Positions 1 through 11,225 of a stretch of DNA of 63,148 nucleotides are shown here, piece by piece. Origin of the DNA: Candidatus Fermentibacterota bacterium. GTDB taxonomy: Bacteria; JAFGKV01. Below the pieces are notes generated by a model. That model did not search any database. It worked only from the letters and a program-made list of their open reading frames with translations, and was not told the DNA's origin. The DNA lies in assembly GCA_016928395.1 (NCBI GenBank), contig JAFGKV010000143.1:1-63148 (forward strand), read 5' to 3'. The position numbers and the translations under genes were made by a program. Numbering within the stretch: the first letter of the stretch is position 1; each line of letters opens with the position of its first letter.

Positions 1-65
1 CCGCGTCTCTCCAGAGTCCATTGACCGCCTCTACCTGCTCCATTCCCCTCCAGAAACTTGACATT

Positions 66-521
66 TTACCTACGTCCCGGGGGCCCACCCATCAGGGACG
101 CCACCAAGGAATCCAGATGGTCAGCTAAGGCCTCAGGCCCGTCGGCTTCAAAGTGGAGACGGGCACGCCATCTGTTGAAGACCGATTGGCTCAGCGGATT
201 CTGGTCGGATTCGCGACCAGGCAGGACCACGTGGAGGTCGAGCCCGCAGGCAGCGGCCCCCGCGGCGGCGTTTCGACTGAAGCTCGTGGCCTTCATAGTG
301 GCCACCGTGGTTGCTCGCTTGGCAAGCGCATCTCCCAGGAGGAAGTCAACCTTCCGGGTCTTGTTTCCGCCCAGGCCGAATCCGGTCAGATCATCACGCA
401 GGACATAGAGTTCGCGACCAAAACGGGATGACAACCGTGGCAGCTTATGGATAATCGTCGGTATCTGAATGAGGTTGGCACGTGGATGAGCAGCAAGACA
501 ATCAGATATTGCATCGGTCAT
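66..521 (-). pseudogene. Truncated D-cysteine desulfhydrase / ACC deaminase-like PLP enzyme (cassette 4)
   Basis: The 151 residues match the N-terminal half of the PLP-dependent D-cysteine desulfhydrase/1-aminocyclopropane-1-carboxylate deaminase family (usual length about 320-340). The hallmark GGNKTRK, which carries the PLP lysine, is present near residues 51-57, followed by FLLGDALAKRATTV. In relatives the next stretch is a QSNHxR motif; here it reads TSFSRNAAA, so a substrate-site motif is degraded. The frame stops at 66 after GGPPGRR, leaving out the C-terminal PLP phosphate-binding half. The ATG at 521 sits 18 bases downstream of the GTTCGGT core, as expected for a cassette gene. It could instead be a frameshifted gene continuing past base 1. 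Confidence 0.7.
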
Positions 522-535
522 TCTCGATATCCTAC

Positions 536-600
536 ACTACCGAACGCTCAGCATCAGCGGCGGCGCGCAGCGCCGGGTGCTGCATGATGTTGTCAGACCG
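536..600 (-). repeat. attC-like site of the adenosine deaminase cassette
   Basis: Read on the minus strand this runs from GTCTGAC (599-593, like the R'' box GTCTAAC) to GTTCGGT (545-539, like the R' box). Between them are imperfectly complementary arms and a perfect GGCGC-GCA-GCGCC hairpin at 562-574. The adenosine deaminase stop codon TGA is part of the R''-like box. This is the weakest of the three sites because R' and R'' do not pair fully. Its place exactly at the gene 3' end, just before the next start codon, supports the call. Confidence 0.6.
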
Positions 601-1606
601 ACTCGCACTCTCGGTCCCAGACTGGATCTCGTGTGAACTCCGACTCCAATGTGACCTTGCGCTCTTTAGGCAACCACGCGGAGCGAATTGCAGAGAGAAT
701 CAGACGACGGACCTCCGACCTCGTAAATCCACACTCCTCCTCAAGAAGTCGATACTCGTCAGCGAGACGTGTCTGGAACATCTTAGGGTCGTCCGTGTTC
801 ACACTCACCGGTATCCCGGCATCGAAGAACCTCCGGATTGGATGCTCCGAAAGGCACCTGACAACTCCTGTACGAACGTTCGAGATCGGGCACATCTCGA
901 CAGGGATGCGGTGAGCGACGAGGTATTCCACCAGTTCAGGGTCTTCCCAAGCTCGGGTCCCATGTCCAACTCGTTCCACCCCAAGTTCGCGAATTGCGTC
1001 CCAGATGCTCTGAGCGCTTGCCGCTTCGCCAGCGTGGGCGTTCACGTGAAACCCAGCGGCTCTCGCCTTCGCATAGAGTTTCTTGAATGGAGCCGGCGGA
1101 TACTCTTGCTCTGATCCACCGATTCCAATGCCGACAATACCAAGCCCTTTGACTTCCTTCAACTGCTCCAAGGTCACCATTTCCGATTCGGGCCCGTAGT
1201 CCCTGACTAGGTCCGCGACAAGAGCAACCTCAATCTCAGGCACTCGCCCCAAACCCGTGCGGACAGCGTGGGCTATGTCCTGCACGGCAAGCCCGTGGCG
1301 AACAAAGAGAGAGGGCGAGAAGAAGGCTTCCGCATATCGAACGCCCTGTTCGGCCAAATCGCGAGCCGTCAGTTCAGCGATGTGTGTGAAGTCCTCGTAC
1401 TCGCGCAAGAACTGGTTCTTCCAGGACCATGCTTCGATGAACTGCGGAAATCCCTTGTATTCGAAACGGTCCGCCAACGCGGAAACGTCGGGAACGGACG
1501 GGTCACCACCATACTTCTGGATAAGCGCAAACAAGGCCTCATGAGGTATCGCACCCTCCAGATGGACGTGCAACTCTACTTTGGGAACTCTTTCGTACCA
1601 CGTCAT
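593..1606 (-). CDS. Adenosine deaminase-family protein (cassette 3)
   Basis: This 337-residue protein is a full-length member of the adenosine/adenine/aminofutalosine deaminase family, zinc enzymes that hydrolyse the 6-amino group of purines. The metal ligands and catalytic residues are present: HxH at 13-15, HAGE with H191 and E194, VGHGTRA with H215, and NTDDP with D272/D273. The CPISNVRTGVV motif resembles ADA-like and aminofutalosine deaminase subfamilies more than E. coli Add, so the exact substrate is open. The ATG follows the previous GTTAGGC core by 17 bases, with GGAG as ribosome-binding site. It sits beside a purine-type phosphoribosyltransferase, and together they would suit purine salvage. 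Confidence 0.88.
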   Translation of the reverse strand: MTWYERVPKVELHVHLEGAIPHEALFALIQKYGGDPSVPDVSALADRFEYKGFPQFIEAWSWKNQFLREYEDFTHIAELTARDLAEQGVRYAEAFFSPSLFVRHGLAVQDIAHAVRTGLGRVPEIEVALVADLVRDYGPESEMVTLEQLKEVKGLGIVGIGIGGSEQEYPPAPFKKLYAKARAAGFHVNAHAGEAASAQSIWDAIRELGVERVGHGTRAWEDPELVEYLVAHRIPVEMCPISNVRTGVVRCLSEHPIRRFFDAGIPVSVNTDDPKMFQTRLADEYRLLEEECGFTRSEVRRLILSAIRSAWLPKERKVTLESEFTRDPVWDRECESV

Positions 1607-1623
1607 CCGGCAATCTCCGGCTG

Positions 1624-1673
1624 GCCTAACGTCCTGCGATCAGCAGCGCCGGGACGAACCTCACGAACTAGGC
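1624..1673 (-). repeat. attC-like site of the phosphoribosyltransferase cassette
   Basis: On the minus strand GCCTAGT (1673-1667) and GTTAGGC (1630-1624) form the outer arms, and CGTCC/GGACG (1656-1652 with 1634-1630) an inner arm, leaving a short loop region. The total of about 50 bases is at the short end for attC. The stop codon TGA (1663-1661) of the upstream gene lies inside it and the next gene starts 17 bases beyond the core site. Confidence 0.72.
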
Positions 1674-2251
1674 ACCAACCCAGCATCGGCGTCCGCTTCG
1701 CACCAACCCGATGGTAGCTTCTTGCCTTGGTCTACGGCGGCTTTGATATACTCAGGATGCGCTACCCATTTGTTTCGAAACAACACCCGTTGGTCCCAGG
1801 GCCACAGCACAAGGCTATCGGTCACCAGGGGGCACACATCGGGCTGGGGAGTTGCCCAAGAGTGGCACGCCAAAGTCGCAGTTACTACCCGCTCGGCACC
1901 TGCCTGGCGAACCGCTTCGGCCACGAGCGCGAGGCTCTCTCCTGTGTCAGCTATCTCGTCGACAACTGCGACAACTCCGCCAGCTACCTCTGGTGAAACG
2001 GCCACCTTCCAGACGGGTTTGGCATAAGCCACCACATCGTTCACTCGCCGGGTCACCCGGACAGGGTACAACTCGGTTCGAAGGCTTAGAGCGATCTGAG
2101 TTGCGGGAAATAGACCCGGGCGGGCTATGCCAACCACGGCCCCGACGTTCAGCCTACCTAACTCCTCCACCATTTCCCTGCACAATTCGCTAAAACGCTC
2201 CCAGGAAATCGGGGCAAAGCCGTCGCGGTTCACATAGTCGTAGCTCTTCAC
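1661..2251 (-). CDS. Purine-type phosphoribosyltransferase (cassette 2)
   Basis: This is a type I phosphoribosyltransferase-fold protein. VVDEIADTGESL is the PRPP-binding loop, and the N-terminal ISWERFSELCREM plus VVGIARPGLFPA resemble archaeal/bacterial xanthine-guanine-hypoxanthine transferases that join a purine base to PRPP. The start was set at GTG 2251 because GGGAG stands seven bases before it; the upstream GTG at 2275 would add eight residues without a ribosome-binding site. This gives 196 residues. Its last residues are encoded within the attC site, so the C-terminus (about PDADAGLVPSS) may be a product of cassette formation. The substrate base cannot be read from the sequence. Confidence 0.8.
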   Translation of the reverse strand: MKSYDYVNRDGFAPISWERFSELCREMVEELGRLNVGAVVGIARPGLFPATQIALSLRTELYPVRVTRRVNDVVAYAKPVWKVAVSPEVAGGVVAVVDEIADTGESLALVAEAVRQAGAERVVTATLACHSWATPQPDVCPLVTDSLVLWPWDQRVLFRNKWVAHPEYIKAAVDQGKKLPSGWCEADADAGLVPSS

Positions 2252-2307
2252 GGTAGAGCTCCCTTCCCTGGCCACTATATTTCGTCAGCCCACTCCGTGG
2301 CATAGAG

Positions 2308-2390
2308 CACTAACGTTTCAGCCAACCGGCGGGCAAAAGCAGAGCGAAGCGCCGCTTTTGCCCGTCCGTGTTGAGCGATTTGCTAGGTTG
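2308..2390 (-). repeat. attC site of the CDF transporter cassette
   Basis: This is the best-formed attC of the window. A perfect 11-bp stem (cgggcaaaagc 2330-2340 with gcttttgcccg 2354-2364) encloses a 13-base loop. Outside it, on the minus strand, the order is CCTAGCAAATCGCTCAA, then CGGAC, stem, GCCGGTTGGCTGAAAC and finally GTTAGTGC. This matches the R''-L''-L'-R' arrangement of classical attC sites. The transporter stop codon TAG (2385-2383) lies in the R'' box. Confidence 0.85.
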
Positions 2391-2997
2391 CTGCACTAAG
2401 TTCTGCCTTGGCTGAAGCGATAACGCGAATTGCAGAGCGCATTAGAAGCCACACGAGCCCCAGTGCAACGATAATATCTGGCCAACCGGAACCGGTGAAC
2501 CAGACAGCACCAGCCGCCACAAAAACAGAAAGATTTGACGCTATGTCGTTTCGCGAGCATTCCCACACCGAACTCATGTTTACATCTTCGTGGCGGTGGC
2601 GCCAAAGCAGGTAAAGACAGAATGAGTTTGCGACAAGACCGAGAAGACTGAACGCACCCATAACCTCAAAGATAGGGACGCTTGGAACGAAAAACCTGTA
2701 AGCAAGTTGGGCAATAACGGCACAGGCCGCCAAGAAAATTAAGCCGCCCTTGAAAAGCGCGACCTTGGCCTTTACGGTAGCGCCCCTCGAAACAGCGTAC
2801 AGGCTAAGGCCGTAAGTCAAAGCGTCCCCCAGATTATCAAGACTGTCGGCCAACAGTGCTGTTGATCTTCCGTAAAGCGCGGCCACAGCGATAACTAGAA
2901 ACATCACGGCATTTATGCCGAGCACAACCAGCAGTGTTCCCCGTTGCCTCTCGCGAAGGGCATCTATGGCGCAATTGTCATCACAGCAATTACTCAT
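2383..2997 (-). CDS. Cation diffusion facilitator-type transporter (cassette 1)
   Basis: This 204-residue inner-membrane protein is a CDF-type metal/proton antiporter. The signature is ADSLDNLGD (D51, D54, N55, D58) in helix II, and a second polar set, SRNDIASN (N150, D151, N155), in helix V. A His-rich loop HRHED (134-138) and a Cys-rich N-terminus (CCDDNC, 4-9) may bind metal. About six transmembrane segments can be seen. It lacks the cytosolic C-terminal domain of full CDF proteins (about 300 residues), as do several short cation transporters of this kind. It is the first cassette after the integrase relic and its base composition looks more AT-rich than the rest of the window. Confidence 0.85.
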   Translation of the reverse strand: MSNCCDDNCAIDALRERQRGTLLVVLGINAVMFLVIAVAALYGRSTALLADSLDNLGDALTYGLSLYAVSRGATVKAKVALFKGGLIFLAACAVIAQLAYRFFVPSVPIFEVMGAFSLLGLVANSFCLYLLWRHRHEDVNMSSVWECSRNDIASNLSVFVAAGAVWFTGSGWPDIIVALGLVWLLMRSAIRVIASAKAELSAAT

Positions 2998-3009
2998 TCT
3001 GTAACCCCA

Positions 3010-3062
3010 TTTGGCAACCTAACTGCGTGATATGCAGATCCGTATGACACCCACTACCAGCC
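3010..3062 (-). other. Probable attI / first recombination junction
   Basis: This is the 53-base stretch between the stop of the integrase relic (3063) and the first cassette. It contains GTTAGGT at 3023-3017 on the minus strand, the expected core crossover sequence, 20 bases before the CDF gene's ATG. The location, not a recognised attI consensus, supports the call. It could instead be the scar of a lost cassette. Confidence 0.5.
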
Positions 3063-3400
3063 TCACAGCTGGTCCATCGGGCTCCGCACGCCGCGTCCCC
3101 CGCGATTCAGCACGGGCGTGCAGACCATGGTCGTGCGCACGTCCTTGTGACCAAGGAGCTCCTGCACCGTTCGATGACCTATCCAGACTCCAGAAAGTGC
3201 GTGGCGCGAATGAGAAGACGGGGGTGCTGACTGGAGAAGCGCTGCGAATGGGCGGGAGCGGTGCCAGGCGCAGCGGGGGCGCGGGGAGAACCCGGTAGGG
3301 AGCGGGCATTCTGAAGATATCCGATGGGCTGCATCACGACCCCACAGCGAAGGCATCGATCGGGATTGGATGAACCGAAGGAAGAGCCTCAGATCCTGCC
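3063..3400 (-). pseudogene. intI: Integron integrase remnant (intI), catalytic Tyr lost
   Basis: The C-terminus reads [16 protein letters not shown], then [18 protein letters not shown]. It matches the integron integrase ending (…[21 protein letters not shown]) closely, but the nucleophile Tyr of the IYTH motif is Cys and the following His is Pro. Upstream, the conserved HSFATHLLESGYD block survives only in another frame (RATHFLESG then a stop, around 3190-3230). A region like SRSIDPRSGRDRRHH is recognisable as [15 protein letters not shown] near 3320-3360. There are at least one frameshift and several substitutions. It is a tyrosine recombinase fragment that cannot be active. Its 3' end faces the cassettes on the same strand, the inverse of class 1 integrons. 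Confidence 0.8.
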
Positions 3401-3500
3401 TGTCAAGGCGCCGAGTTCGCGACCCTTGCCGCCAGTGCAGGCCGCGACGGATGCCGGCGTGCGCCGTCAGGCCACAATGCCCCATGTGGGCGGTGCACGC

Positions 3501-3534
3501 GGGCGCGCGTTGGCGCGCGTTGGCGCGCGTTGGC
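3501..3534 (+). repeat. 10-base tandem repeat
   Basis: There are three successive near-identical units of GGCGCGCGTT ending in TGGC. It lies between the integrase remnant and the promoter region of the next gene. No function is apparent. Confidence 0.8.
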
Positions 3535-3574
3535 AGGTTGTCAAGGTACCCTGCCTACCCGGCGGCGCGGCGGC

Positions 3575-3603
3575 TTGACATTACGCCAGCCTTTGTGTAC
3601 CTG
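3575..3603 (+). promoter_or_regulatory. Possible sigma70-type promoter for the GyrI-like gene
   Basis: TTGACA at 3575-3580 is a perfect -35 box, about 80 bases before the GTG start. The -10 region 17 bases on (TACCTG) is poor, so this is a weak candidate. Confidence 0.3.
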
Positions 3604-3660
3604 CATCGAGTATGCGAGACGGTTGTCTCGCAGTCAGGGCATCCCACAAGGAGGTCACGC

Positions 3661-4221
3661 GTGATCAAGATCGGCGCCATCGCTCTCCTTCTCATGTGCG
3701 CACACCTCGCAGCCGAGGAGCCGGCTGAGCCCGCGCCCCCACCCGCGGAACCGGCCGCCCCGGCCGAAGTCTCGGCCAAGCAGGTCGACTCGCTCTGCGT
3801 GGTCGTGCTCCCCATGAAAGGCTCCTACGCTCAGCACGAGTCGGCCATTCCCCAATTAATGACGTATCTCACCGAGACCCTTATGGTTGCCCCCCTGGGG
3901 CCGCCCTTCGGCCGCTATTTCAACAACCCCATGGAGGCGGCTGAAGCCGACCTCGAATGGGAGATCGGCATGGAGGTGGCCCCCGGGACAGTGGCGGAAG
4001 CTCCCTTTGAAGCCAAGACCCTTCCCGGCGGCGAAGTAGCGTTCATCGTGGTAAGGGGGCCCTATGAGACCGCGGGGAATGCGTGGCCCGGTGTGTACAT
4101 GTGGGCAATGACCCGCGGCTACACGCCCACAGGCCCGCCCATGGAACTGTGGCTGGGCGGCGAAGGCCCGGAGACCGAGCTTCGCCTCCCCATAGCCAAG
4201 CCCGCACCTGCAACGCCGTAG
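3661..4221 (+). CDS. Secreted GyrI-like (AraC effector-binding) domain protein
   Basis: This 186-residue protein has an N-terminal signal peptide (IKIGAIALLLMCAHLAAEE) and then a Pro/Ala-rich linker (AEPAPPPAEPAAPAEV). The single GyrI-like small-molecule-binding domain is recognisable from LGPPFGRYFN, the charged central strand EWEIGMEVAPG, and the C-terminal GPYETAGNAWPGVYMWA helix followed by ELWLG. Such domains bind hydrophobic or cationic small molecules and usually sit in transcription factors; here it is exported alone. The GTG start was chosen because a perfect AAGGAGGT lies at 3648-3655; longer frames upstream have no such site. It is convergent with mntP. Confidence 0.75.
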   Translation: MIKIGAIALLLMCAHLAAEEPAEPAPPPAEPAAPAEVSAKQVDSLCVVVLPMKGSYAQHESAIPQLMTYLTETLMVAPLGPPFGRYFNNPMEAAEADLEWEIGMEVAPGTVAEAPFEAKTLPGGEVAFIVVRGPYETAGNAWPGVYMWAMTRGYTPTGPPMELWLGGEGPETELRLPIAKPAPATP

Positions 4222-6210: not shown

Positions 6211-6420
6211 ATGGGGCGACTGATCGTGGCTCTCTGGCGCGTCTTGTCAGTCGGCACGCTGGCACCCCTCCGACCCCGACCGATGTCGCCCTGTGGCACA
6301 GCCCGCTCATCGCCGATCTCCCCATCACCGACCGCGGAGGCGATGCCGATGACGTCGGCGATGCCTTCGCCCAGGGGGGTGCCGCGTCGTTCTGGACGCC
6401 GTCGCCCAGCCGGTCGCTAC
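6211..6420 (+). pseudogene. Broken copy of the 5' end of the glycosidase-like gene at 7962
   Basis: An ATG with GGAG upstream opens a signal-peptide-like stretch (MGRLIVALWRVLSVGTLA). After a frame change near 6265 the sequence reads PPTPTDVALWHSPLIADLPI and on to DAFAQGG. This matches the mature N-terminus of the 7962 protein (PPTPTDLVLWPSPLIADLPI … DAFAQGE) at both the DNA and protein level. Similarity fades by about 6420, where the convergent Cache-domain gene begins. It is a truncated, frameshifted paralogue. Confidence 0.75.
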
Positions 6421-7268: not shown

Positions 7269-7961
7269 CCTCGGTCCTCATGGTGACCGGCTCAGCCTTG
7301 GTCGCCGCCGAGATCGTTCCGTCGAACTCACGGAACGGAGCAACCCCGGTACTAGCATGTGCCGGAATACCAATGTGGGGCGCAAGACTGATGTGCCCAG
7401 CAGCCCTCCGTTGACGCCGTGTGGTATCGCCGATTTAGACCTTGCAGCGCAAGGTCACAATCACCGGGTAATAAGATGCCGCCCTGGTGCAACCGTCAAC
7501 TCCCACTCAAGACGCCCACCGAAACCGGTTAAGCCCGGCTCAGCAAGCGAGCCATGGGTGCAGATATCCGGTGGGATATCGACCCGACTCGTGGGGGCGA
7601 AGCACAGCGTAGCCCCATCGGGCAACAGAACTGGTCGGGATGCAACGGCGATCGAATGCGATCCCATTTGTGAGTCCGAGTACTAGGCGTCGTCGACTGC
7701 ATCAGCTTCATCACCATGAGAGGGCTGGGAATCCGCCACGCTCTCACCTTCGATCGGCACTTCTATGAACAGGGGTTTGGGCGAATCGGGGGAGGATCGC
7801 CCGGCTGACTGTCCTGCACCCGAGTGCCACGCCGAGGGGGTACTGTGCCTGCGCGGAACAACGGCCTGTTCCGCGGGTCTGGCCACGTGCGGTCATCCGC
7901 GCTATCATGCGTGGTCACGACCCCATACACGCCCCTGATACCATCTCCCGGGAAGGGTGAG
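7269..7961. other. Gene-poor stretch between the Cache lipoprotein and the glycosidase-like gene
   Basis: No convincing gene is seen. Short frames on both strands lack ribosome-binding sites and family resemblance. The only clear structure is a 7-bp inverted repeat GTTCCGT/ACGGAAC at 7316-7336. Confidence 0.5.
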
Positions 7962-10900
7962 ATGCGCCGATTACTGCCCACTCTGCTCCTAACTGCCGGC
8001 TCTTCGCTGGCCGCCCCTCCGACGCCGACCGACCTCGTCCTCTGGCCCAGCCCGCTCATCGCCGACCTCCCCATCACCGGCCGCGGGGGCTATGCCGATG
8101 CCGACGGCGATGCCTTCGCCCAGGGTGAGTACCGTTTCGTTCTGGACGACATGTCCCAATCGGCCGAGGCGCTCCCCCATGCCCTGGTACTCAATGCCGA
8201 CGGCAGCGCCATGGGCGAGGGGCTTCATGCGCCGGCCGAATCCACGGCCGTGGCCTATACCGACGGCGTGTGGGGCCAATCCTTCGACTGCGGCGGTAAC
8301 CCCCGGCTCCGGTTCACCTCAAGCCCGCTGGGCGACCCCGCCGATGGCGCCGTAGACTTCTGGTTTCGCCTCCACCACGGTCTCTCCGACAGCATCTATG
8401 CCGGCTGGCGCATCTTCTTCTGGCTGGAAACCACCACCGGTGATGCAATCTATGTCGAGACCCATGTCAACACCATATACGGTGCGAGCTACTCCGGCGG
8501 GCAGTATGCAGGAGCGTGGACCGGCAGCCTCGACCTCGGAGCCGGTGACTGGCATCACTTCCTCTATGGATGGCGGGCTGCAGACTCGACCGCCGTGGTC
8601 TTCATCGATGGGGTACAGCGGGGTCTATCCACCTCGTGGCCCGGTGTCACAGGTTTGGCTTCTGCAGTCTACATCGGCAATGCGCCGTGGGGGAATCACG
8701 CGGCCTTGGCGGATGTCGACGCGGTCCGCGGGTGGACGCGCTTGCCCACCCCCGCGGAGGCGGCCTGGGCGGCCTGCTCCACGGTGCCGCCCAGCCAGTG
8801 CTCGGCCGTGCTGGCGGATCCCGTCCCGACGGGTACGACCGTACGGTATGAAGTCAGAGTCGCCGACACCACGGGTTCCTGGAGTGACTGGGTTTCCAGC
8901 ACCACGGATACCCTACGCCCCTCTCTCATCGACACCGTGCTCCCGCCGCCGCGTCTGGCCGCCCACGATGCCGCAACCCTTCCTCTGGAAGTGCACACAG
9001 GCATCCCCTGTCAGTGCCGTGCGTCGGAGACGATGGATGCGTTCGCGCAGATGACCACGGTGCTCGCATCGGCCGACGGCCTGGTACATACCGGGGTATG
9101 GCCCATAGACCCGGCCGACGAGTATCGCGAGATAGCGGTACGCTGCTCGAGTCTCGCCGGTGACATCGATCCGGATCTGGTGGCGGCTTCCACCGGCTAC
9201 CGGCAACTCAGGCCCTACGATCCGCCTTACCCCCGGCCCGCGCTCCTGTGGGGGAACTACGATCCGGAACTGGGGCTTGGCTTCTTCAGCAACTACGCGC
9301 TCATCATCACGTGGTCTGGGAGCAGCTTCACCGGGGAAATCCAACGCTCACTCCGTGCCTTCAACCCCGATCTCAAGATCCTGACTACCGGGCACCTCTC
9401 GTATGGCGGGCCGCCCATGGAAGACTGGGCGGCGCTGACCGACCCGGAAGACCCGCACTTCAACTGGGTCCTGCGCGATCCATCCGGTGACGTGATCCTG
9501 GAATCCTACTGGGGTCACGCCTTCTACAATCTCACCGATTCGAGCTGCGTGGAGTGGCTGGTCGACTACAACGTCGATCAATGGCGGGCTGCCGAGTTGA
9601 TCTTCGACGGCATCTATTTCGACCGGGTCCACGACTTCATCTCCCATGTCTCCGACGACATCGATGCCGATCAGGACGGCGTGGCCGACAATCCCGCCGT
9701 GCTGGACAGCATCTGGTCTGATGGCATGGAATACTACCTCCAGCGCTTCCGTGCCGAGCTTCCCAACGAGGTCATCTGCGGCAACGACACGCCGCTGCAC
9801 TTCGGCCCCTACATCAACGGCCGTCTGTTCGAAATGGGTCTGGCCTACATCATGGATGAGGATGGCGACTGGGTGCCCTTCTTCGACGAATACCGTCAGT
9901 GGGAAGACGTGCATCGCGAGCCCTATTGCCTGCCCATCGTGTGCAACCAGGCACCCCTGGACTTCCTCTGGCGATGGGGCCTCAATCCGCAGAATTCAGT
10001 TCCACCGGATTCAGTCGAATGGGTGCGCACCCGCTATAAACGTATGCGTTTCGGGCTGGGCACGGCATTGCTCTCCGAGGGGGTCTCGGTCTACGACTTC
10101 GGCACCACGTGGTGGGGCAATCCCTGGTGGTACGATGAGTATGACGTGAACCTTGGCTATCCCACGGGGGCTCCCTACCGGATCACCGATCCCGCGACCA
10201 TTGTGGCCACGGAAGATTTCGAGGCGGGTACGGAGGGCATCTTCAACCTGAACCACTGGGGCACCATGTGGGCGGAGATCACCGATGATCCGAGCGAGGT
10301 GATCAGCGGCTCGTATTCGCTCAAGGGCGGCAACGACAACATGGGGCAGACGTGGAATGAGTTCGCCCACTCCGATCTCGACAGCCTGCCCCTGTCGGGT
10401 GATTCGACCTACACGGTCACCTTCACCTACAGAGTGCTGGAGGCGCCGCCGTCCACTGGCCACTTCTACTTCTTTGCGCGCTCCCTCACCGGAGGCGTGG
10501 CCTCGGATGTGGGTAGCTACTCCTGGCGGGGGGCGTCAGGCGCCATGGATACGGTAACCGTGACCTTCGCCTTGGAGTCGTATCCTGACTACTACCTGGT
10601 GTTCGGTCTCAAGTACACGGGCGAGTATGCCGTGGATGACATCGAGATCGCCGCGGGCGGGGGTGGGCTGTGGAAGCGCGACTTCGACCATGGCGTCGTG
10701 GTGGTGAATCCTGTCGGCATGCCCCAGACGGCCGATCTGGGCGACACGCTCTGCCGCTTCCTCGGAGCCCAGGACCCGGTTCATAACGACGGCCAGCCGG
10801 TGAGATTGCTCACCCTCCAGGGTCATGACGCGATCCTTCTGCTCTCGACCTCGTCGGGCCTGACGCCCCCGGGACCCCTCACAATCACGCCCTCTGGCTC

Positions 10901-11225
10901 GGATGCGCTGCTCGATTGGGGACCCAGCTCTGGTGCGGCAGGCTATCACGTCTATCGAGACACGACGGCCTGGTTCATGCCATCCGGGGCGAACCGCCTG
11001 ACCTCGAACCCGTTGTCCGGCCTCACCTACACCGATCCTGGCGTGCTGGGCGATCCCGCCGCGCCGGTGTTCTACGCGGTCCGCGCCCTCAGCTCCGCCG
11101 GCATCGAGTCCGCCCCCTCCAATCGCGTCGGCGGCATGGCGACAGGCCTGGACAGCCGACGCGTCCGAAGGACGCTCCACGCTCCTCCCCTTGTCAAAGG
11201 GAGGATGGGAAGGAATAGGCCCTGA
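7962..11225 (+). CDS. Secreted multidomain glycosidase-like protein (LamG, GH-like barrel, FN3)
   Basis: This 1087-residue exported protein starts at ATG 7962, preceded by GGGAAGGGTGAG; upstream in-frame starts have no signal peptide. After the signal peptide (MRRLLPTLLLTAGSSLAA) come: a laminin-G/concanavalin-like domain (about 60-280, with the DGVQRGL strand); a putative glycosyl-hydrolase TIM barrel (about 400-760), seen from LLWGNYDPELGLG, the FDGIYFDRVHDF strand with clustered acids, and ALLSEGVSVYDFG; a carbohydrate-binding-like beta sandwich (about 760-900); and a C-terminal fibronectin III domain (about 965-1060). The barrel resembles hypothetical glycosyl hydrolase families, so substrate is unknown. 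A broken paralogue of its 5' end lies 1.7 kb upstream. Confidence 0.75.
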   Translation: MRRLLPTLLLTAGSSLAAPPTPTDLVLWPSPLIADLPITGRGGYADADGDAFAQGEYRFVLDDMSQSAEALPHALVLNADGSAMGEGLHAPAESTAVAYTDGVWGQSFDCGGNPRLRFTSSPLGDPADGAVDFWFRLHHGLSDSIYAGWRIFFWLETTTGDAIYVETHVNTIYGASYSGGQYAGAWTGSLDLGAGDWHHFLYGWRAADSTAVVFIDGVQRGLSTSWPGVTGLASAVYIGNAPWGNHAALADVDAVRGWTRLPTPAEAAWAACSTVPPSQCSAVLADPVPTGTTVRYEVRVADTTGSWSDWVSSTTDTLRPSLIDTVLPPPRLAAHDAATLPLEVHTGIPCQCRASETMDAFAQMTTVLASADGLVHTGVWPIDPADEYREIAVRCSSLAGDIDPDLVAASTGYRQLRPYDPPYPRPALLWGNYDPELGLGFFSNYALIITWSGSSFTGEIQRSLRAFNPDLKILTTGHLSYGGPPMEDWAALTDPEDPHFNWVLRDPSGDVILESYWGHAFYNLTDSSCVEWLVDYNVDQWRAAELIFDGIYFDRVHDFISHVSDDIDADQDGVADNPAVLDSIWSDGMEYYLQRFRAELPNEVICGNDTPLHFGPYINGRLFEMGLAYIMDEDGDWVPFFDEYRQWEDVHREPYCLPIVCNQAPLDFLWRWGLNPQNSVPPDSVEWVRTRYKRMRFGLGTALLSEGVSVYDFGTTWWGNPWWYDEYDVNLGYPTGAPYRITDPATIVATEDFEAGTEGIFNLNHWGTMWAEITDDPSEVISGSYSLKGGNDNMGQTWNEFAHSDLDSLPLSGDSTYTVTFTYRVLEAPPSTGHFYFFARSLTGGVASDVGSYSWRGASGAMDTVTVTFALESYPDYYLVFGLKYTGEYAVDDIEIAAGGGGLWKRDFDHGVVVVNPVGMPQTADLGDTLCRFLGAQDPVHNDGQPVRLLTLQGHDAILLLSTSSGLTPPGPLTITPSGSDALLDWGPSSGAAGYHVYRDTTAWFMPSGANRLTSNPLSGLTYTDPGVLGDPAAPVFYAVRALSSAGIESAPSNRVGGMATGLDSRRVRRTLHAPPLVKGRMGRNRP

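Follow-up and report, generated by a model that had tools for sequence, protein, structure and literature searches.

Reverse integrons, in which the cassette array lies downstream of intI on the same strand, tend to be treated as a peculiarity of Treponema and a small number of other groups. Those of Treponema have been described (PMC3607928, PMC7691350), and typical Spirochaetota IntIs are generally of reverse orientation (PMC9668308). The locus analyzed here lies at the start of a 63,148-nucleotide stretch of Candidatus Fermentibacterota DNA (the window), which is contig C183 of the MAG G000, base 1 of the window being the first base of the contig, so that the further 10 kb on the left that the initial annotation wanted included do not exist. 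It resembles the integrons of Treponema denticola and its relatives (PMC3607928, PMC7691350) in that intI is transcribed toward attI and the cassettes are co-directional with it. It differs from them in that only a stub of intI is left, the array is very short, several platforms are present in one genome and the host belongs to a different, poorly sampled group. The locus also resembles CALIN and other degraded chromosomal integrons (IntegronFinder, PMC9024848), in which cassettes and attC sites occur but a functional intI does not; in contrast to CALIN, an intI 3′ stub and attI survive here, so that the original orientation is still legible.

On the minus strand, the locus is composed of the intI 3′ stub and its stop codon, an attI-like segment, an R′ site and four same-strand genes, and the 3′ end of the stub faces the array and lies on the strand of the cassettes, as is also the case on contigs C130 and C22. 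We conclude that the locus is most probably what remains of a chromosomal integron of the reverse type, a judgment that concerns the integron and its orientation and is separate from the RIT (recombinase-in-trio) step discussed below. The attC sites are degenerate, and the case therefore rests on the ensemble of features and on sister loci in the same MAG (4.79 Mb in 343 contigs, 94% complete and fragmented). An Rfam scan of the window gave zero gathering-level matches, and no sigma-70 promoter for the array was seen upstream of the first cassette.

The intI 3′ stub occupies positions 3066–3205 (minus strand). Its profile match (3066–3176, minus strand) corresponds to positions 279–315 of the 315 positions of TIGR02249 (E = 2e-12), and it can be aligned to about position 3205 against the stubs of C130, C22 and C47. 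The stub also matched the PRK15417 integron integrase in the profile search, and the same search reported no Xer family for it, in agreement with the initial annotation, which had proposed an integron relic and had named an ordinary XerC/XerD as the result that would speak against it. The last 37–50 codons are all that is left of the window intI; they are frameshifted, and in comparison with C130 the catalytic Tyr codon has become Cys and a His codon has become Pro. The MAG yielded no N-terminal half of intI and no TIGR02249 match above cut-off, hence no complete intI, which agrees with the earlier proposal that the array is frozen. An intact intI could sit on a missing contig of this fragmented assembly.

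The point at which the stubs begin recurs between loci. The C130 stub, which retains 52 open codons from the R-H-S box through the stop, begins precisely at the R-H-S codons; the stubs of C47 and the window begin at roughly the same place. On C130, where the stub junction lies about 100 bases in from the contig start, a RIT-type element end abuts the R-H-S codons, with AGTCGGCATAATCCTGAAGTCGGCATAATGGCGGTTATGCCGACATCGGCATAAT preceding the stub in the arrangement found at the right end of L185. The latter is an acidobacterial reverse intI that is split at its R-H-S codons by a 3.3-kb element. Three adjacent tyrosine recombinases and CGGCATAAT-type terminal inverted repeats identify this element as a RIT; RitB relatives are common on rhizobial and other plasmids, those of Cupriavidus among them. 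The likeness to known RIT elements (PMC3414803, PMC10214605) thus consists of the recombinase trio and terminal inverted repeats within the L185 intI and the matching end at C130, whereas the window itself holds no RIT part.

Junctions of this kind were also found in other genomes. The pattern of a RIT end followed by RHSFATH codons was present in 2 of 386 genomes (G000 and G033, with the RIT end abutting the RHS codons on contig C188 of the latter) and in 3 of 50 genomes with IntI loci, while the reversed controls gave none in either set. A RIT end joined to the RHS codons as on C130 was seen in four other genomes, two of which hold complete RITs, and viral contigs gave zero such junctions. 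Among the genomes that carry the pattern, one (L234) has another tyrosine-recombinase gene whose halves, cut at the R-H box, flank a complete RIT, and another (L235) has two stubs placed head to head around a palindrome. When plasmid RITs were picked before their flanks were viewed, four of five adjoined tyrosine-recombinase halves cut at the R-H box (L237–L240). The broader proposition that all RITs target recombinase genes was ruled out by more distant RITs at other sites, including three at HExxH codons in ArdC/zincin-like genes (L243, L245 and L246) and four at unassigned sites (L241, L242, L244 and L247). Outside the window, it is highly likely that one RIT branch targets the R-H box DNA of tyrosine-recombinase genes, IntI included. 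Insertion at active-site codons may be true of several RIT branches, with the branch nearest L185 using tyrosine recombinases. RIT target specificity is listed as not tested in PMC10214605, and the literature searched yielded no report of RITs inserting at R-H box codons in tyrosine-recombinase genes. This lead, which lies outside the window, is more surprising than the relic itself.

For the window, intI has lost everything upstream of about the catalytic R-H-S codons and the remainder has decayed. The recurring truncation point is best explained by RIT insertion into the R-H box codons, an event that is visible on C130 and in the acidobacterial reverse intI. We tentatively propose that a RIT branch inserting at the R-H box turns integrons off at a fixed codon and leaves a stub, attI and a frozen array, with the window as a late product; that the window intI was likewise cut by a RIT that has since been lost is possible, if on balance doubtful. 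A rival to this step only, which we judge about as likely as not, is that independent neutral deletions happened to produce a shared stub start, or that the R-H-S box, as the best-conserved part, is simply the last to remain recognizable. It is favored by the lack of a RIT end near the window and C47 stubs, by the tendency of profile alignments to start at strongly conserved motifs, and by C326 and C296, which retain only the last few codons of intI. The motif CGGCATA is absent from positions 1–4200 of the window, where repeat A (see below) rather than a RIT end lies beside the stub, neither a RIT recombinase trio nor a terminal repeat was found at the window junction, and a search of the G000 assembly gave no RitB homologue. 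This rival accounts less well for C130, where the RIT-type end adjoins the codons without a gap, for the recurrence of that junction in unrelated genomes, and for the observation that no intI is recognizable in any frame upstream of any stub. If RIT insertion was the cause, the stubs would represent a testable route of integron death, in which a mobile element carrying recombinases of its own strikes another member of the same enzyme family at its active-site codons.

Immediately past the intI stop codon, the window carries the attI-like segment GGCTGGTAGTGGGTGTCATACGGATCTGCATATCACGCA (3024–3062, minus strand), which recurs in the MAG and is followed by the R′-type crossover site GTTAGGT (3017–3023, minus strand) at the boundary with the first cassette, 26 nt before the cassette 1 start. 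Judged by sequence, this 39-nt segment together with GTTAGGT has the properties of an attI with an R′-type crossover site. The segment shows 0/39 differences between the window and C130, while the stubs of the two loci differ at 14/105 positions (P = 0.009 for the split). Its core is found at five places in the MAG (C130, C183, C326, C301 and C296; 0 in the reversed control) and is absent from both relatives searched. In the intact state, intI would have been transcribed toward this attI, the orientation that the anatomy of the locus displays, and IntI would have inserted cassettes at the R′ just past the intI stop codon. Insertion at a site beyond the stop codon would therefore place intI and the cassettes in the same direction.

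The order of stub, attI and same-strand cassettes recurs on C130 and, in a variant form, on C22, and it is partly preserved on C326 (stub end and attI) and on C301 and C296 (attI core). Stubs similar to that of the window are found on C130, C22 and C47. The attC covariance model matched behind the first cassette with 18.3 bits on C130 and 13.1 bits on C22, and a strong match of 28.9 bits was obtained on C95. Between the window and C130 stubs there are 8 synonymous and 3 non-synonymous codon changes, from which we infer that the two copies probably diverged mostly while still coding and decayed afterwards. The genome holds several wrecked platforms. Each has an intI stub, repeat A or both, together with attI and from one to a few cassettes.

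The sister loci also bear on the reading that a classical divergent integron once stood here and that its intI fragment was flipped or moved locally, so that the reverse orientation would be an artefact of decay. A decayed locus that is ringed by repeats, with a stub that cannot be assigned to the reverse side of the IntI phylogeny, would be compatible with such an event. The same order and 39-nt spacer are shared by C183 and C130, however, with the variant on C22 and partial copies on C326, C301 and C296, and one local rearrangement would be insufficient for all of these loci unless it took place before their dispersal. We consider a flipped fragment improbable, and the reverse orientation given in the initial annotation is borne out by the recurrence of the stub–attI–cassette order at other loci of the MAG.

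All four cassette ORFs lie on the minus strand, as seen by both ORF calling and profile search. Cassette 1 (2383–2997) encodes a cation diffusion facilitator (CDF) of 204 aa (PF01545, E = 2e-14; TIGR01297, E = 8e-17), cassette 2 (1661–2275) a phosphoribosyltransferase, also of 204 aa (PF00156, E = 1.5e-13), and cassette 3 (593–1606) an intact adenosine deaminase of 337 aa (TIGR01430, 277 bits, above cut-off). Cassette 4 (66–521) is the 5′ third of a D-cysteine desulfhydrase/ACC-deaminase-like PALP gene (PF00291), with matches to XcbE, CuyA and PRK14045 that end at residues 104–130; this PLP-dependent lyase is cut after about 110 of 330 residues by the repeat at the contig end. The array had been described as four same-strand cassettes, which is correct for the four genes and their strand, while only the first three are intact. 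These genes were presumably kept for their function.

The repeat that truncates cassette 4, and at which the contig breaks off, is the end of a multi-copy IS-like element (1–87, minus strand) with the terminus GGACGTAGGTAAAATGTCAAGTT at 55–77. Positions 1–87 of the window are 100% identical to C296:1–87, likewise a contig start, and the terminus is found at 27 places in the MAG (0 in the reversed control). On the other side of the locus, upstream of the intI stub, lies a remnant of the dispersed leader repeat A (3316–3474, minus strand), 69% identical to the C326 copy. Repeat A is positioned upstream of a stub or attI on C183, C47, C326, C296 and C301 and elsewhere also stands alone. It was considered as a RIT end and ruled out, as it lacks CGGCATAAT repeats.

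Three degenerate attC-like junctions separate the cassettes, all on the minus strand. The first (2308–2388) has R″ ACCTAGC and R′ GTTAGTG and a long hairpin; it is without a good covariance match, and it folds much better than its shuffles (z = −4.3). The second (1624–1673) has R″ GCCTAGT and R′ GTTAGGC, and the third (539–598) has R″ GTCTGAC, L″ CATGCAGC with an extra G, L′ GCTGATG and R′ GTTCGGT. The AAC end is missing from all three R″ boxes. R′-like sites (GTTAGGT, GTTAGGC and GTTCGGT) are positioned 24–26 nt ahead of the start codon in three of the four genes; in the remaining one the site is GTTAGTG, at 38 nt. With a relaxed pattern that was set after the sites had been seen, an R′-like site lies at such a spacing before 6 of the 61 control ORFs taken from the window; with the strict R′ pattern the count is 1 of 61, against two of the four cassette genes.

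A first, loose attC heuristic could not distinguish the window from background and was replaced by a strict scan and a covariance model built from 33 attC sites of other genomes. The two best matches of this model in positions 1–3200 coincide with two of the three inter-gene gaps. The best, at 544–593 (minus strand), reaches a weak 5.8 bits; the other, at 1624–1673, scores 4.8–5.1 bits and is nearly palindromic, with the plus strand ranking second and the minus strand (4.8 bits, weak) third, and both are lost in background when the whole window is searched. The gene order and the R′ spacing fit the attC-like junctions of the initial annotation, the covariance matches lie in the gaps with weak scores, and the three covariance hits that it had looked for were not reached at a convincing score. 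By sequence, the putative attC sites of the window have lost their R″/R′ pairing, and for this reason the array is very probably immobile while its cassette genes stay open, in a MAG in which no integrase was found. Chance proximity of a recombinase remnant and an ordinary four-gene operon that was never an integron would fit the weak covariance scores and is nonetheless very unlikely, given that the stub matches integron-integrase models only, the R′-like sites lie at a near-constant distance from the starts (against 6/61 control ORFs), the two best covariance matches sit in gene gaps, and the sister loci share the stub and attI while having better attC sites and unrelated genes.

To place the relic, we compared 80 IntI loci that the C130 stub retrieved when named genomes were scanned with it, a sample thus selected by similarity to a short query. 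By strict scan and covariance model, reverse-side arrays are found among these loci in at least eight phyla (Acidobacteriota, Actinomycetota, Omnitrophota, Spirochaetota, Gemmatimonadota, Fibrobacterota, Planctomycetota and Fermentibacterota), with some orientation labels taken from single or weak attC matches, for example at L153, L157 and L161. Classical arrays, upstream of intI and on the opposite strand, are mainly from Pseudomonadota, and also from Cyanobacteriota and others. In a tree of full-length IntIs, one branch (support 100/96) separates 8 reverse from 25 classical sequences, and a second tree, which includes outgroups, likewise puts 9 reverse sequences on one side (91/83). Rooting on Xer-like outgroups was tried and gave long branches and no settled root. 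The best stub, that of C130, takes no settled position in the IntI trees, its 52 residues being too short for placement. Typing of the stub by residue log-odds leaned toward reverse, but the classifier failed cross-validation and was dropped.

The view that reverse intI is known from only a few lineages is therefore too narrow. With reverse arrays in at least eight phyla and reverse IntIs on one side of the tree, the additional lineage suggested in the initial annotation is one more lineage within a broad and already known type; what the window holds is one further reverse-integron relic of that type. The survey suggests a single broad IntI lineage over at least eight phyla in which orientation tracks phylogeny, which makes its history testable. 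Loci from Acidobacteriota (L165), Omnitrophota (L160) and Gemmatimonadota (L143) share with the window a same-strand array past the intI 3′ end; in contrast to the window, all three have strong attC sites, and IntI is intact in L165 and L160.

RIT elements, trios of adjacent tyrosine recombinase genes, lie at the codons for the R-H(-S) catalytic box in other tyrosine recombinase genes, including those of integron integrases. The sites are the acidobacterial reverse-type intI split by a RIT (L185:1670-6156), a further tyrosine recombinase gene split by a complete RIT (L234:453-4786), the recombinase halves abutted by plasmid RITs (L237-L240), the sister intI stub of the same assembly (G000:C130:1-125; L009) and locus L228 (1-126). 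In several of these cases one flank of the element carries a palindrome of 20-24 bp, built from the repeat tips. In an Olavius symbiont (L235:624-1004), the palindrome TATGCCGAGCTCGGCATA is flanked by two integrase 3' stubs in head-to-head orientation, and no element separates the stubs.

More distant RITs, at L243, L245 and L246, have trio flanks that adjoin the codons for HELxH in genes of ArdC/zincin-like metallopeptidases, which suggests that RIT branches may differ in the gene family whose active-site codons they target.

A dispersed leader repeat, repeat A, with the layout GGGACGTAG..TGTCAAG ... GCGCCTTGACAGG ... CTTCACCAGGGGCTGTGATGGA, is found in G000 on the window contig (C183) and on C47, C326, C232, C281, C296, C95, C13, C211, C301 and C148. 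It lies upstream of an integron stub or attI at five loci and stands alone at others.

Two Actinomycetota MAG loci, L151 and L157, hold reverse-type integrons with full-length IntI, both with modest attC support; complete integrons have been reported absent from RefSeq Actinomycetota (PMC9024848).

The window also contains a 162-bp segment in two copies of 84% identity, one (8005-8166) forming the beginning of the gene at 7824-11225 for a large secreted-type protein, the other (6257-6416) an out-of-frame fragment. A short tandem array of GGCGCGCGTT units (3492-3531) is positioned upstream of the gene at 3661.
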